NCBI RefSeq assembly: GCF_007954425.1
Contig: NZ_CP042345.1
Coordinates: 558,001 to 622,000 of the forward strand
Direction: 5' to 3'
Source of the DNA: Novosphingobium ginsenosidimutans
GTDB taxonomy: Bacteria; Pseudomonadota; Alphaproteobacteria; Sphingomonadales; Sphingomonadaceae
DNA length: 64,000 nt
In this document: positions 29,033 to 46,097 of the stretch, piece by piece
Numbering within the stretch: position 1 is the first letter of the stretch
Layout: every line of letters begins with the position of its first letter
Program-made: the position numbers and the translations under genes
The notes under the pieces: model-generated
Told to the model about the DNA's origin: nothing
The model's input: only the letters and a program-made list of their open reading frames with translations
Databases searched by the model: none

Positions 29033-30247
29033 TTAAGCTGCCAGTCTGAGCTCCAGGCGTTCCCAGATTTCGACCAGGGCTTCGGTCAGTTCCTGCATCA
29101 TGGCCTCGGTGTGGGCGGGGCCGGGGGTGAAGCGCAGGCGCTCGGTGCCGCGCGGCACGGTCGGGAAGTTGATCGGCTGCACATAAACGCCGTATTCGGC
29201 CAGCAGGATGTCGCTGATCTGCTTGGCGCGGACCGGATCGCCGACCATCAGCGGCACGATATGGGTGGTGCTGGGCATGACCGGCAGGCCAGCCTCGGCA
29301 AACGAGCGCTTGAGGAAGGCGGCGGCGGCCTGCTGGCCTTCGCGCTCAATGCTCGACTGCTTGAGGTGGCGGACCGAGGCGAGCACGCCGGCAACCAGCA
29401 CCGGCGAGAGCGAGGTCGTGAAAATGAAGCCGGGCGCGTAGGAGCGGATCACATCGATGATCTTCGAATCGGCCGCGATATAGCCCCCCATCACGCCAAA
29501 AGCCTTGCCCAGCGTCCCTTCGATGATGGTGATGCGGCTTGCCGCTTCGTCACGCTCGGAAATGCCGCCACCGCGCGCGCCGTACATGCCGACGGCGTGG
29601 ACCTCGTCGATATAGGTCAGCGCATTGTACTTGTCCGCCAGGTCGCAGATCGCGTGGATCGGGGCGACATCGCCGTCCATCGAATAGACGCTTTCGAAGG
29701 CGATCAGCTTGGGCAGGGCGGGGTCAGTTTCGGCCAGCAGCTCTTCCAGGTGTGCGACATCGTTGTGCCGAAACACCTTCTTTTCAGCGCCCGAATTGCG
29801 AATGCCGGCGATCATGCTGGCGTGGTTCAATTCGTCCGAGAAGATCACGCAGCCCGGCAGGATCTTGGCGAGCGTCGACAGCGTGGCATCGTTCGAGACA
29901 TAGCCCGAGGTGAACAGCAGCGCGCCGTCCTTGCCGTGCAGGTCGGCCAGTTCGCGCTCCAGATCGACATGGTAATGGGTGTTGCCGCCGATGTTGCGGG
30001 TGCCGCCCGATCCGGCGCCGACATCGTGCAGCGCCTCTTCCATCGCGCTGATCACGGTCGGATGCTGACCCATGGCGAGATAGTCGTTGGAGCACCACAC
30101 GGTGATCGGCTTGGGGCCATTGTGCCCGGCAAAGCAGCGGGCGTTGGGATAAGCGCCCTTGTTACGCAGGATGTCGATGAACACCCGATAGCGGCCTTCC
30201 GAATGCAGCCGGTCAATCGCCTGGTCGAAAATCTGATCGTAGTTCAC
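29033..30247 (-). CDS. hemA: 5-aminolevulinate synthase
   Basis: This 404-residue PLP enzyme condenses glycine and succinyl-CoA to 5-aminolevulinate, the first step of heme synthesis in alphaproteobacteria. Visible features: FAGHNGPKPITVWCSNDYLA, GAGSGGTRNIGGNTHYHVDL, DEVHAVGMYG and the PLP lysine in EGTLGKAFGVMGG. The GTG start overlaps the upstream stop (GTGA), so it is the last gene of the cytochrome operon. That suggests heme supply matched to multiheme cytochrome demand. Whether another hemA copy exists elsewhere cannot be seen here. Confidence 0.96.
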   Translation of the reverse strand: MNYDQIFDQAIDRLHSEGRYRVFIDILRNKGAYPNARCFAGHNGPKPITVWCSNDYLAMGQHPTVISAMEEALHDVGAGSGGTRNIGGNTHYHVDLERELADLHGKDGALLFTSGYVSNDATLSTLAKILPGCVIFSDELNHASMIAGIRNSGAEKKVFRHNDVAHLEELLAETDPALPKLIAFESVYSMDGDVAPIHAICDLADKYNALTYIDEVHAVGMYGARGGGISERDEAASRITIIEGTLGKAFGVMGGYIAADSKIIDVIRSYAPGFIFTTSLSPVLVAGVLASVRHLKQSSIEREGQQAAAAFLKRSFAEAGLPVMPSTTHIVPLMVGDPVRAKQISDILLAEYGVYVQPINFPTVPRGTERLRFTPGPAHTEAMMQELTEALVEIWERLELRLAA

Positions 30248-30447
30248 AGTTTGCTCCCGGTTCCGGTCTCCATGGCCGGCGCTGTGGGTTGGCCGGACAG
30301 ATCGGGGCTACCTTGCCAGCCATAGCCAGCCAGAGCCGTCAAAATGGCAACCACCGCCAGTTCAAGGGCAAGACGCGAGCAGCGCCCGCTCAGATACAGC
30401 CCAAGAAAGCTGATTACCGCAAAGGCGCTCGCGAAGACCCACCCCAT
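30244..30447 (-). CDS. CcmI-like small membrane protein
   Basis: This 67-residue protein has two hydrophobic segments (MGWVFASAFAVISFLGLYLS; ALELAVVAILTALAGYGW). It resembles the membrane N-terminus of CcmI-type proteins but has no TPR part. It overlaps both neighbours (TAATG with ccmH, GTGA with hemA). A TPR-type CcmI-like protein is encoded separately at 41622-42665, so CcmI function may be split. The homology is my reading and is not certain. Confidence 0.6.
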   Translation of the reverse strand: MGWVFASAFAVISFLGLYLSGRCSRLALELAVVAILTALAGYGWQGSPDLSGQPTAPAMETGTGSKL

Positions 30448-30848
30448 TAGCTGCGCTCCACCTTTAGCCGGCGCGAAACCAACCAGATCCCGACCGCCAG
30501 TGCCAGCAGCGGCACCAGCCAGAGTGGCAGGGTTCGCGCCTTGACCTCCGGCTTGAAACTGACCCAGTCGCCGTACTTGCTGATCAGCATGCCGCGCACC
30601 GCCTCAGGCGAATCCCCGGCGGCAATCCGCTCGCGGATCAGGCGGCGCATGTCCCCGGCCAGGTCGGCGTTGCTGCCGGAAACGGGCTGGCCTTGGCAGA
30701 CCACGCAGCGGATCGAATCCATCAGCGCCAGAGCCTGCTCTTCCTGGCGCGGATCAGGCAATGAAACCTCGGCAAGATCCTGCGCTCTGAGCTGAACAGG
30801 CAAGGTCAGGAGCAGGACGAAAGCCAAGATCAGGCCGCGCGCGGTCAT
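30447..30848 (-). CDS. ccmH: cytochrome c maturation protein CcmH
   Basis: A 133-residue protein with a signal peptide (VQLRAQ), the apocytochrome thiol-reductant motif RCVVCQ at about residues 47-52, the CcmH segment LISKYGDWVSFKPEVKARTL and a C-terminal helix (LPLWLVPLLALAVGIWLV). It presents reduced CxxCH apocytochromes to CcmF. Coupled to ccmG (ATGA). Confidence 0.94.
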   Translation of the reverse strand: MTARGLILAFVLLLTLPVQLRAQDLAEVSLPDPRQEEQALALMDSIRCVVCQGQPVSGSNADLAGDMRRLIRERIAAGDSPEAVRGMLISKYGDWVSFKPEVKARTLPLWLVPLLALAVGIWLVSRRLKVERS

Positions 30849-44100: not shown

Positions 44101-44757
44101 ATGCGGCTGCTGCTGATCGAAGATGACGCGCGACTTGCCAACCGCATGGCTGTGCGGCTGGCAAGCGATGGGATGGTGGTCGAACACGCCTCTACCGCAG
44201 CACAGGCGCTGCAATTTGACGACCTTACGAGCTTTGCCGCGCTGATCGTCGATATCGGACTTCCCGATGTGGATGGCGTTACCTTTATCCGGCGCATCCG
44301 GTCGCTCGGCCTGACCATGCCGATCCTGATCCTTTCGGCCCGGGGCACTTGGGAAGAAAAGGTTGAAGGGCTGAATGCCGGTGCCGATGACTATGTCGTT
44401 AAACCAGTTCGCGCCGAAGAGCTGGTGGCCAGGCTCAATGCCCTGCTGCGCCGCGCGGCCGGCCAGGCTGGCGAACGCCTGTCAGCCAGCGGTATAGAAC
44501 TTGACCTGCGCCAGAAGGCCGCATGGGTCGATGGAGACCCCATTGACCTTACCCAGGTTGAGTTCCGGCTACTCCAGCTGTTCCTCCTCCGCCCTGCGCA
44601 CATCCTTGGTCATGGTGAGATCCTTGAGCATCTCTATCCTGCGGCCAAGGGCCGTGAGGCCAACACCGTCGAAGTCAACATAGCGAGGCTGCGCCGCAAA
44701 ATCGGCAAGGACGCCATTCGCACCGTGCGCGGCCTGGGCTACCGGTTAAGGCGATGA
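44101..44757 (+). CDS. OmpR/PhoP-family response regulator
   Basis: A 218-residue regulator with a receiver domain (acidic EDD at 7-9, phospho-aspartate in LIVDIGLPDVDG, lysine in YVVKPV) and a C-terminal winged helix (REANTVEVNIARLRRKIG; TVRGLGYRLRR). The family binds 11-bp-spaced direct repeats such as those at 38744-38765. Its stop overlaps the kinase start (ATGA). Confidence 0.93.
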   Translation: MRLLLIEDDARLANRMAVRLASDGMVVEHASTAAQALQFDDLTSFAALIVDIGLPDVDGVTFIRRIRSLGLTMPILILSARGTWEEKVEGLNAGADDYVVKPVRAEELVARLNALLRRAAGQAGERLSASGIELDLRQKAAWVDGDPIDLTQVEFRLLQLFLLRPAHILGHGEILEHLYPAAKGREANTVEVNIARLRRKIGKDAIRTVRGLGYRLRR

Positions 44758-46097
44758 ACCGTTTAGCGCGCCTGCTTCGTTCGCATTTTCTGGTCGGCAC
44801 AGTGGTGTTGGTCGGGCTTGGTGTCGTGGCGGGCGGGATGCTTGTTTCCGCGCTTTTCCGGTGGAGCCTGGTCAGCGGCTACCACGAAGAACTGAGTGTC
44901 CACATTGACGAGCTCGCGGCCCTCGTTGCGATCGATCCCCAGGGCCAACCATTTATGCTGCGACGCCTGTCGGATCCGCGTTACTTGCCGCGAGGATCAG
45001 GCTATTATTGGCAAGTCAGTCGCGATGGCTACAAGACCATCACATCACCTTCACTTGGCGAAGCCCGTCTGGATCCCGGTCTTGCAAGTACTGACCGCTT
45101 GCGAATGGTATGGACCGAGGGCCCGTCCGGTCCGATGCTGGAATATGCGAGGCAGGTCCCTCGCGTGGGTGGTCCACCGCTACGGCTGCAGATCGCTACC
45201 GATGAACGGCTGATCGACGAGGCCATGGCCCAGTTCAATCGCTCATTGGCACTGGCGCTGGGCATTTTCGCACTACTGCTGATCATCGCAGTGGTATTGC
45301 GGGTCCGTTTTGGACTTAAGCCGCTTGCCCGGCTTACCCAGGATGTAGCCGATGTCCGCACGGGACGCGCTGAACAGATGGTTAGCGAATACTCCTCGGA
45401 CGTCACACCGCTCGTTAATGAATTGAACAACCTGATCGAGGCGAGCAAGGAATCGGTTTCCCGCAGCCGGCTTGTGGCCGGCAATCTGGCGCACGGCCTG
45501 CGTACGCCGCTTTCAATCCTGATCGATGAGGCCGAAAATCTGCGCCAGGCGGGAAAGACTGATGCTGCCGATACCATTCTGCGCGAGGCGCGGACGATGC
45601 AGCGGCAGATCGACCTCCATCTGGCCCGGGCCCGCAGCGCTGCAGTCCTGCCATTTCGAGGTCAATCCACAAGCCTCGGGGTCGTCGCCGAACGCCTGGT
45701 CACAGCATTTAGGCGGCTCTACTATGATCGCGGGATTGCATTCGTGCTCAAACGAAGTGGTAACGTTCAGGTTGCGTGCGACGAAGTGGACTTGATCGAA
45801 ATCCTCTCCAACCTGCTTGATAACGCCGGAAAATGGGCAGTTAGCCGATGCACGCTCAAATGGCAGGTCCATGATTCCCGGGTCAACATCGAGATCGAGG
45901 ATGATGGCCCCGGCCTAGCCGCAGAGCAGCGCGAGGCAATGTTCCAATCCGGCGCGCGCCTTGACAGTGTGACAGCTGGAAGCGGTCTCGGCCTTGCCAT
46001 CTCGCGCGATCTTGCACGTGGTTACGGCGGCGAAGTTAAGCTTGAAGATACGCCGTTGCGAGGTCTGCGAGCGATCATTGATCTGCCGAAAGCTTGA
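44754..46097 (+). CDS. PhoQ-like sensor histidine kinase
   Basis: A 447-residue kinase with two membrane helices (about 12-38 and 163-183) around a periplasmic sensor of about 125 residues, a HAMP-like linker and an H-box NLAHGLRTPLSILIDE that resembles PhoQ. The N-box (NLLDNAGKWA) and G-boxes (DDGPGL; GSGLGLAI) are present. The sensed signal is unknown. Location beside the cytochrome genes suggests it controls them. Confidence 0.92.
   Translation: MNRLARLLRSHFLVGTVVLVGLGVVAGGMLVSALFRWSLVSGYHEELSVHIDELAALVAIDPQGQPFMLRRLSDPRYLPRGSGYYWQVSRDGYKTITSPSLGEARLDPGLASTDRLRMVWTEGPSGPMLEYARQVPRVGGPPLRLQIATDERLIDEAMAQFNRSLALALGIFALLLIIAVVLRVRFGLKPLARLTQDVADVRTGRAEQMVSEYSSDVTPLVNELNNLIEASKESVSRSRLVAGNLAHGLRTPLSILIDEAENLRQAGKTDAADTILREARTMQRQIDLHLARARSAAVLPFRGQSTSLGVVAERLVTAFRRLYYDRGIAFVLKRSGNVQVACDEVDLIEILSNLLDNAGKWAVSRCTLKWQVHDSRVNIEIEDDGPGLAAEQREAMFQSGARLDSVTAGSGLGLAISRDLARGYGGEVKLEDTPLRGLRAIIDLPKA

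Follow-up and report, generated by a model that had tools for sequence, protein, structure and literature searches.

A sphingomonad PCC3 locus with linked heme-ligation genes and a divergently encoded flavoprotein

Gene content and identity of the locus

The sequence analysed, hereafter the window, is a stretch of 64,000 nucleotides of Novosphingobium ginsenosidimutans (NZ_CP042345.1, 558,001-622,000; genome handle G000), and it carries a cluster of genes for multiheme cytochromes (MHCs), an outer-membrane barrel and heme ligation that is almost certainly a sphingomonad form of the porin-cytochrome complex PCC3, as judged from motifs and gene order. Gene parts were assigned by Pfam and NCBIfam profile matches, motif counts, hydropathy and comparison of open reading frames (ORFs) with those of relatives, and coordinates are window positions unless another sequence is named. 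A leftward run encodes, in order, a cytochrome b, two MHCs, the barrel, CcmF, CcmG, CcmH, a CcmI-like piece and 5-aminolevulinate synthase (ALAS), and divergent rightward genes encode a CcmI/NrfG-like protein, a flavoprotein, a response regulator and a histidine kinase:

40539..41396, minus strand: cytb, PCC3 inner-membrane protein (IMP), a cytochrome b, from motifs and conserved residues; ORF open from 41507
38764..40539, minus strand: C24, 24-heme periplasmic-type cytochrome with 24 CXXCH, PF14522/PF14537 matches and a Sec-type N-terminus
35730..38600, minus strand: C38 (Cn in relatives), 38-site cytochrome, presumed extracellular MHC, with 37 CXXCH, one CX3CH and a PF22113 match
33347..35719, minus strand: outer-membrane barrel, from an AlphaFold2 model and fold matches
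31372..33315, minus strand: ccmF, PCC3-linked heme lyase (PF16327/PF01578)
30845..31375, minus strand: ccmG/DsbE, thioredoxin-like, GTG start (TIGR00385 above cut-off)
30447..30848, minus strand: ccmH (PF03918)
30244..30447, minus strand: CcmI N-terminal-like piece of 67 residues with two hydrophobic stretches
29033..30247, minus strand: ALAS, second near-identical copy (TIGR01821)
41622..42665, plus strand: tpr, CcmI/NrfG-like TPR protein (PF23914)
42640..43977, plus strand: fdfp, FAD/NAD(P)H oxidoreductase with two iron-sulfur motifs, probably membrane-anchored, from profiles, motifs and alignments
44101..44757, plus strand: response regulator, OmpR-type (PF00072/PF00486)
44754..46097, plus strand: histidine kinase (PF02518/PF00512)

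The starts at 41396 for cytb, where relatives begin MASGAG, and at 31375 for ccmG are likelier than the ORF ends. The cytb and C24 genes overlap by 1 bp, followed by gaps of 163 bp between C24 and C38, 10 bp between C38 and the barrel and 31 bp between the barrel and ccmF; the ccmF-ccmG, ccmG-ccmH and regulator-kinase overlaps are each 4 bp and that of tpr and fdfp is 26 bp. The CcmI-like piece is joined to the upstream ccmH at a TAATG and shares 4 bp with the beginning of ALAS, whose start lies inside the stop of the piece; since every junction from ccmF to ALAS is an overlap, ALAS looks like a member of the leftward unit. A promoter and terminator scan of the locus gave site counts close to those of shuffled sequences, and therefore neither supports nor divides the unit. 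The genes, order, motifs and overlaps proposed in a first-pass annotation of this DNA are thus borne out by profile matches and ORF junctions, and its count of 38 sites in the larger cytochrome is correct once the single CX3CH is included.

PCC3 was predicted in 2017 by He et al. (PMC5566968) and is described there as a porin, a periplasmic cytochrome (median 21 hemes), an extracellular one (median 34 hemes, maximum 85) and an inner-membrane protein of approximately 300 residues with two WX3HX13H motifs, an SGXXG motif and five transmembrane helices, the cytochromes having 22-39 residues per heme. It was reported in Alpha-, Beta- and Gammaproteobacteria, including iron oxidizers, with Erythrobacter named as a Mn(II) oxidizer (PMC5566968), and periplasmic MHCs of 21, 24 and 27 hemes are given in PMC10734462. 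The window shares the barrel, the 21-27-heme periplasmic and very large second cytochrome, the cytochrome b motifs, the gene order and the residues per heme (24.6 and 25.2 in its two cytochromes); C24 and C38 together hold 62 heme sites per conduit. Erythrobacter sp. SD-21 (L020) carries the same cluster as the window. As PCC3 was already described with Erythrobacter named, the earlier suggestion that no described system of this composition was known in sphingomonads fails; the accompanying proposal of a conduit from the inner membrane to the cell surface is still the most satisfactory interpretation and matches the PCC3 model as published. Compared with PCC3 as described, the window adds linked ccmFGH, CcmI-like genes, ALAS, the divergent fdfp and the two-component pair.

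The cytochrome b motifs lie at W130-H134-H148 and W297-H301-H315 (two WX3HX13H), with SGLIG at 171 (numbering of the long ORF), and none of their W, H and SG..G residues varies across an alignment of 38 rows. Relatives of C24 occupy the same gene position and have 21-24 CXXCH. C38 is built largely of 23-residue repeats, its gene containing DNA repeats of 279, 141 and 138 bp; the protein matches PF22113, an MtrC/F-like domain, and has a Sec-type N-terminus, and an extracellular location is presumed. Counterparts of C38 that were read whole possess 11 to 57 CXXCH; L052 has, besides, a short match. In L011, L014-L017, L019, L020, L022, L023 and L025 the C-terminal CX3CH segment of the window protein is absent and a different tail is present instead. 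Two more large multiheme ORFs (16 and 11 CXXCH) lie directly upstream of the PCC3 cluster in L029 (1-5813), and a second Cn-like cytochrome with 13 CXXCH lies behind the barrel in L116 (12317-13474).

The AlphaFold2 model of the barrel (mean predicted local distance difference test, pLDDT, 80.1; predicted template modelling score, pTM, 0.58) has a beta-domain at residues 39-143, TPR-like helices at 162-251 and about 22-24 strands over residues 276-789. Its fold matches are outer-membrane barrels in general, and Pfam gives just weak TPR-type matches (E 0.01). A SPOR domain, which binds peptidoglycan, is present in 34 of the 50 barrel rows scanned and absent from the window barrel. MtrCAB, MtoAB and PioAB likewise combine a barrel with periplasmic and surface MHCs and would work in a similar manner; however, they use a decaheme MtrA/DmsE cytochrome and an MtrB-family barrel, and the window matches neither. 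The DmsE model TIGR03508 scores 163.8 and 23.6 bits on the window cytochromes against a cut-off of 192.2, no MtrB/PioB-family match to the window barrel was found in the Pfam and NCBIfam scans, and no MtrB entry is among the 50 fold-match rows shown for it, which excludes nothing. A Methylobacter bioanode cluster is of the MtrAB type and not a PCC3 (PMC13322032). In genome G747, viewed as ORFs only, the barrel and the end of Cn are situated within or close to a single open frame of 1453 residues, together with a long antisense ORF. An apparent barrel-CcmF fusion in L017 was rejected, the part of the long ORF that precedes CcmF being out of frame with the barrel.

Conservation, the flavoprotein partner and linked heme-ligation genes

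Genome searches scored few first-look candidates per genome (usually two for the barrel and four for fdfp), so that misses are possible. The barrel profile matched 15/396 genomes of a Sphingomonadales draw at E 1e-3, 11 strongly and four weakly (E 1.7e-4 to 5.6e-4), 22/385 of a class draw (three strongly) and 61/398 of a phylum draw (six strongly); no PCC3 barrel was found on plasmids at E 1e-20. A total of 37 loci were tabulated, L013 having been dropped as a duplicate of L050, and L012 and L023 being two contigs of one metagenome-assembled genome; most were picked via the barrel, and the association of cytochromes with the barrel is therefore partly one of selection. Of the 37, 24 extend 9 kb or more upstream of the barrel, and all 24 have fdfp, cytb, a C24-type cytochrome and a Cn match, with the qualifications that the Cn match of L052 is short (144 residues) and that fdfp of L113 is truncated where the stretch stops. 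L029 and L114 have their fdfp downstream instead. Altogether fdfp is present in 27/37 loci, and the ten without it (L010, L012, L015-L018, L021, L025, L027 and L112) all have less than 3 kb upstream of the barrel. The neighbourhood expected from the first-pass annotation is accordingly upheld for the cytochromes with the barrel (24/24) and not for ccmF, which is behind the barrel in just 14 of 34 loci.

At E 1e-60, fdfp was found in 15 of 396 Sphingomonadales genomes, a draw taken to be the same as that of the barrel search (equal size, same listed handles). These comprise all 11 genomes with a strong barrel match, G106, which is 67% complete and whose contig ends in Cn so that any barrel would lie beyond it, and G311, G328 and G371. 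For the association of fdfp with a strong barrel match, Fisher's test gives 1.7e-18 (11/0 against 4/381, uncorrected for kinship). In the last three genomes (L159, L160 and L161) the neighbours of fdfp are a C24 relative with 15 hemes and a partial cytb match, and no barrel match is present in the 20 kb read; because these genomes keep fdfp with cytb and C24 relatives and no barrel, fdfp would appear to go with the cytochrome b end of the conduit. A relative of fdfp with 45.5% identity is present on an Emticicia plasmid (n = 1). A protein of about 600-680 residues with ankyrin repeats accompanies fdfp in other-type PCC3 loci (L053-L059, L026, L029, L117 and L162), and in the four scanned it has Sel1 repeats too.

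The fdfp product has one N-terminal hydrophobic stretch, barely above threshold, two iron-sulfur motifs and a part resembling the flavin adenine dinucleotide (FAD)/NAD(P)H domains of TrxR and Bdr. In the 21 chosen rows on which conservation was judged, the ligands of the iron-sulfur motifs are invariant save C71, which is Ser in L114, L115 and L116, and the second motif has an invariant His102 where one Cys is expected. The best solved relatives are Bdr/YpdA (89 bits over residues 183-442), which share the TrxR-like FAD/NAD(P)H part. Bdr possesses a catalytic Cys next to the FAD motif, whereas the corresponding A191 of fdfp is Ala in 21/21 rows, and no C..C pair was found in fdfp outside the iron-sulfur motifs. 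R362 and R368 are invariant in the same rows and, by their resemblance to a known motif, hint at NADPH. Unlike Bdr, fdfp has an N-terminal iron-sulfur domain, and the counterpart of the segment closing Bdr's FAD fold seems to be placed ahead of the FAD domain, where it is seen as an insignificant second stretch in phmmer and contains a run of residues invariant in the 21 rows. Moving this segment to the end extends the best Bdr match from 6-273 to 6-320 and its score from 89.3 to 93.4 bits; against this, among the 13 chains listed, re-ordering raises the score in five, leaves it unchanged in three and lowers it in five. As rises and falls are equal, it is the alignment and the conserved residues, not the scores, by which a circular permutation of fdfp relative to Bdr/TrxR is suggested.

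The sphingomonad PCC3 loci are distinguished by ccmF, ccmG and ccmH right behind the barrel. Of the 34 loci that extend 3 kb or more beyond the barrel, 14 have ccmF directly behind it in a ccmF-ccmG-ccmH block, and all 14 are sphingomonad-named or in the window's genus. The same position of ccmF is seen in L010 on a shorter sequence. L113 and L115 have ccmF, ccmG and ccmH elsewhere in the locus; in L115 (G1090) the set lies between the barrel and fdfp together with an ABC ATPase, a CcmC-like protein and CcmE, and its CcmF is the only one found in the genome. L053-L057 have just CcmG-like and TPR matches of 27-33% near fdfp, and the remaining 13/34 loci have zero ccmF, ccmG or ccmH matches in the stretch read. 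A small ORF like the CcmI piece follows ccmH in L011, L012, L014, L015, L016, L020, L024, L025 and L050.

Two CcmF copies, one linked and one unlinked and 62% identical to each other, are encoded in the window genome, and the window CcmF scores 576.7 against the NrfE model TIGR03145 (cut-off 927.3). On a tree of 38 CcmF rows built by a quick method, the 15 linked sphingomonad rows form one group (Shimodaira-Hasegawa-like approximate likelihood ratio test 93, the tool's mark being 95) within a 22-row clade that also contains unlinked CcmF of the window's family, the nearest neighbour among these being unsettled; by its sequence, the window CcmF groups apart from housekeeping CcmF. The linked label requires at least three changes on this tree, a number as low as which was reached in 0/500 shuffles, although a gain followed by losses is also possible, and CcmF of L132 (G747) sits on a long branch with unsure placement.

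No match to CcmA, B, C, D or E was found among the scanned locus proteins. Because the only CcmE of the window genome (2375936 of G000) adjoins the unlinked CcmF copy, the linked set must borrow the housekeeping CcmE. NrfEFG and SirEFG are dedicated lyases in which a CcmFGH-type paralogue is likewise encoded with its own multiheme substrate, and they serve atypical heme sites. In PCC3, however, the atypical site at the C-terminus does not go together with a linked lyase: a C-terminal CX3CH is present in 4/15 loci with linked ccmF and in 11/15 without (5/15 and 14/15 if CX4CH is added). Service of this odd site was hence rejected, the site being commoner where ccmF is unlinked, and extra heme-ligation capacity is the better guess. 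A dedicated heme-ligation function of the linked set is, from its sequence and setting, fairly probable.

The window ALAS differs from a copy at 2289704 (L008 7702-8916) by 11 of 1215 bases and one residue, and the similarity stops at both gene ends, a pattern pointing to a recent copying event or to gene conversion. In the 14 loci with ccmF behind the barrel, ALAS is whole in the window and L012, is represented by its beginning at the contig end in L014 and L016, is a broken remnant behind the linked ccm genes in L017 (7818-8097) and is missing from eight; L021 is too short to judge. Local ALAS is thus an occasional extra, and the picture of a locus with its own heme supply and all build tools in one unit does not hold, CcmE being encoded elsewhere and ALAS being a near-copy of another gene found at few related loci. 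A third ALAS lies with puhA, puhB, acsF and puhE (L009, G000 1857000-1873000), genes by which the host is, genetically, an anoxygenic phototroph.

Electron path and direction

From the gene content, motifs and overlaps, together with the conserved association and the CcmF grouping observed above, a scheme can be proposed in which PCC3 is fed by fdfp, runs outward and has a linked extra lyase station; taken whole, it is marginally favoured. The fdfp protein would be anchored to the inner membrane by its single N-terminal helix, oxidise NADPH or NADH on FAD in the cytoplasm and hand single electrons via two iron-sulfur clusters to the two-heme cytochrome b, by which they would cross the inner membrane and reach the 24-heme cytochrome. 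The latter would bridge the periplasm and enter the barrel, and the 38-site cytochrome would take the electrons outward to an extracellular acceptor. CcmF, CcmG, CcmH and the CcmI-like proteins would form an extra heme-ligation station for the 62 heme sites, supplied with heme from housekeeping CcmE, and the local ALAS copy would add to the heme supply. Protein locations, cofactors, electron path, outward direction and a role of the lyase in adding capacity are predictions from sequence. In ferric reductases/NADPH oxidases (FRD), two helices, both of which contain two His at a spacing of 13 residues, are similarly combined with an NAD(P)H-FAD donor, and the likeness of the PCC3 cytochrome b to FRD was remarked in PMC5566968; in the window, by contrast, the donor would be a separate protein with iron-sulfur motifs and a TrxR/Bdr-like part, and the electrons would go on via c-hemes.

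Several observations weigh against the scheme. The structure model of the cytochrome b, a protein with zero Pfam or NCBIfam matches, is only moderate (pLDDT 75.5, pTM 0.62); simple hydropathy gives four helices against the five of the PCC3 description, the model showing long helices. A Foldseek search returned nothing at E 0.001, the top row being cytochrome b561 at E 0.34, and the VIA fold rows are helical proteins without a clear winner, with cytochrome b561 at ranks 45-46. FAD and iron-sulfur binding of fdfp is predicted from motifs, and the protein could instead accept electrons or do other work. The PCC3 authors proposed inward flow to quinones (PMC5566968). Transcript levels point both ways: in Sideroxydans CL21 one PCC3 inner-membrane gene is up with iron oxidation, its authors calling PCC3 functionally unverified (PMC12442390), whereas in Sideroxydans lithotrophicus ES-1 both PCC3 clusters are down with Fe(II) (PMC8788666).

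The chance that flow is outward and driven by NAD(P)H is evenly poised on the sequence evidence. At neutral pH the potential of NAD(P)H is far lower than that of Fe(II)/Fe(III), and electrons leaving the cell move with the membrane potential; the inward transfer of electrons to NAD(P)+ from Fe(II) would run steeply uphill. The published model, in which an extracellular donor (Fe(II), Mn(II) or other) delivers electrons through the cytochrome b to the quinone pool, is rather unlikely here; it draws on the Figure 6 legend and section 15 of PMC5566968, on PCC3 in iron oxidizers and the Mn(II)-oxidizing Erythrobacter, and on the induced CL21 gene, but it leaves the presence of fdfp in 24/24 loci with enough upstream sequence unexplained and is at odds with the lowered expression in ES-1.

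Two further readings are each quite improbable. Were fdfp a TrxR-like electron source for the Ccm thiol chain, it would serve maturation and stand outside the conduit; its TrxR/Bdr fold, its 26 bp overlap with the CcmI-like tpr, the adjoining CcmI-like and fdfp genes of L113 and L115 and the CcmG-like/TPR matches near fdfp in L053-L057 fit such a role. However, L026, L028, L029, L052, L058, L059, L116 and L117 have fdfp without a ccmF, ccmG or ccmH match in the stretch read, and the lack of a C..C pair outside the iron-sulfur motifs and the Ala at the Bdr Cys place count against it. The cytochromes could, at a similarly low probability, act mainly as an electron store (capacitor) or redox buffer and not as a through-going wire, as the large number of sites in two proteins, the host photosynthesis genes with possible redox swings, the three barrel-less loci (G311, G328 and G371) and a capacitor role raised in PMC10734462 would allow; the barrel nevertheless occurs with both cytochromes in all 24 barrel-found loci of sufficient upstream length, a count in which selection favours the barrel.

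The PCC3 conduit itself was known, and what is added here is the sphingomonad ccmFGH linkage and the constant fdfp partner, which bears directly on the direction of electrons in PCC3. The words FAD, flavoprotein, thioredoxin, ferredoxin and cytochrome biogenesis are absent from the main text of PMC5566968 (the supplement being outside scope), and a literature search on PCC3 that excluded most subscription papers, preprints and supplements found no passage tying it to ccmF or a flavoprotein. Within the same coverage, PMC5566968 alone was relevant to multiheme or porin-cytochrome systems of sphingomonads, Novosphingobium or Erythrobacter. A gene list for iron-oxidizing Gallionellaceae includes CcmH/NrfF and CcmH/NrfG, untied to PCC3 in the part of PMC10734462 concerned. 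Heme lyase genes became linked in three places, suggesting cytochrome maturation as a limiting step for wires of this kind; this is also relevant to the expression of heme wires in laboratory hosts. Should the current indeed run outward from NAD(P)H, PCC3 would be an unsuitable indicator of iron oxidation, and an overlooked means of extracellular electron disposal would exist in sphingomonads, one of which carries photosynthesis genes. It is, more tentatively, conceivable that PCC3 works as an NAD(P)H reductase from cytoplasm to surface. Its missing membrane-bound subunit would be fdfp, possibly permuted and with one Cys3His-ligated cluster, which would feed the diheme cytochrome b and a wire with over 60 hemes; the complex would export electrons instead of oxidising iron, and would have acquired linked heme-ligation genes in three separate lineages since heme loading limits assembly.

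Genomic island setting

A genomic island of some 23 kb (25319-48385) probably carries the window copy of PCC3, in line with the patchy spread of the cluster, as indicated by the following features:

25319..25411, plus strand: tRNA-Ser(gct), probable island integration site, with the 3'-end repeat
46945..48276, minus strand: tyrosine integrase (PF22022, PF13356, PF00589), far end of the probable island
48372..48385, plus strand: tRNA-Ser 3'-end repeat (13/14 bases), candidate right attachment site

The 3' end of the tRNA-Ser gene (25398-25411) recurs just past the integrase, and a pattern fitted to both repeat copies occurs twice in the window and in 0 of 100 shuffles. G+C is 0.612 between the repeats against 0.648 outside. 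No empty site was found in the relatives compared, and the right border is poorly conserved, the two genes at 48493-50471 occurring together in eight relatives without the left-flank or next right-flank genes beside them; both points weigh against an island. In 7/7 relatives read, the gene left of tRNA-Ser is kept and other DNA follows the tRNA (about 1.2 kb shown in L209), and three of the seven have integrases at 30, 37 and 59% identity behind tRNA-Ser. Lower G+C is also seen at the edges of the probable island, which contains in addition CAAX-protease-like, acyltransferase and LytTR genes.

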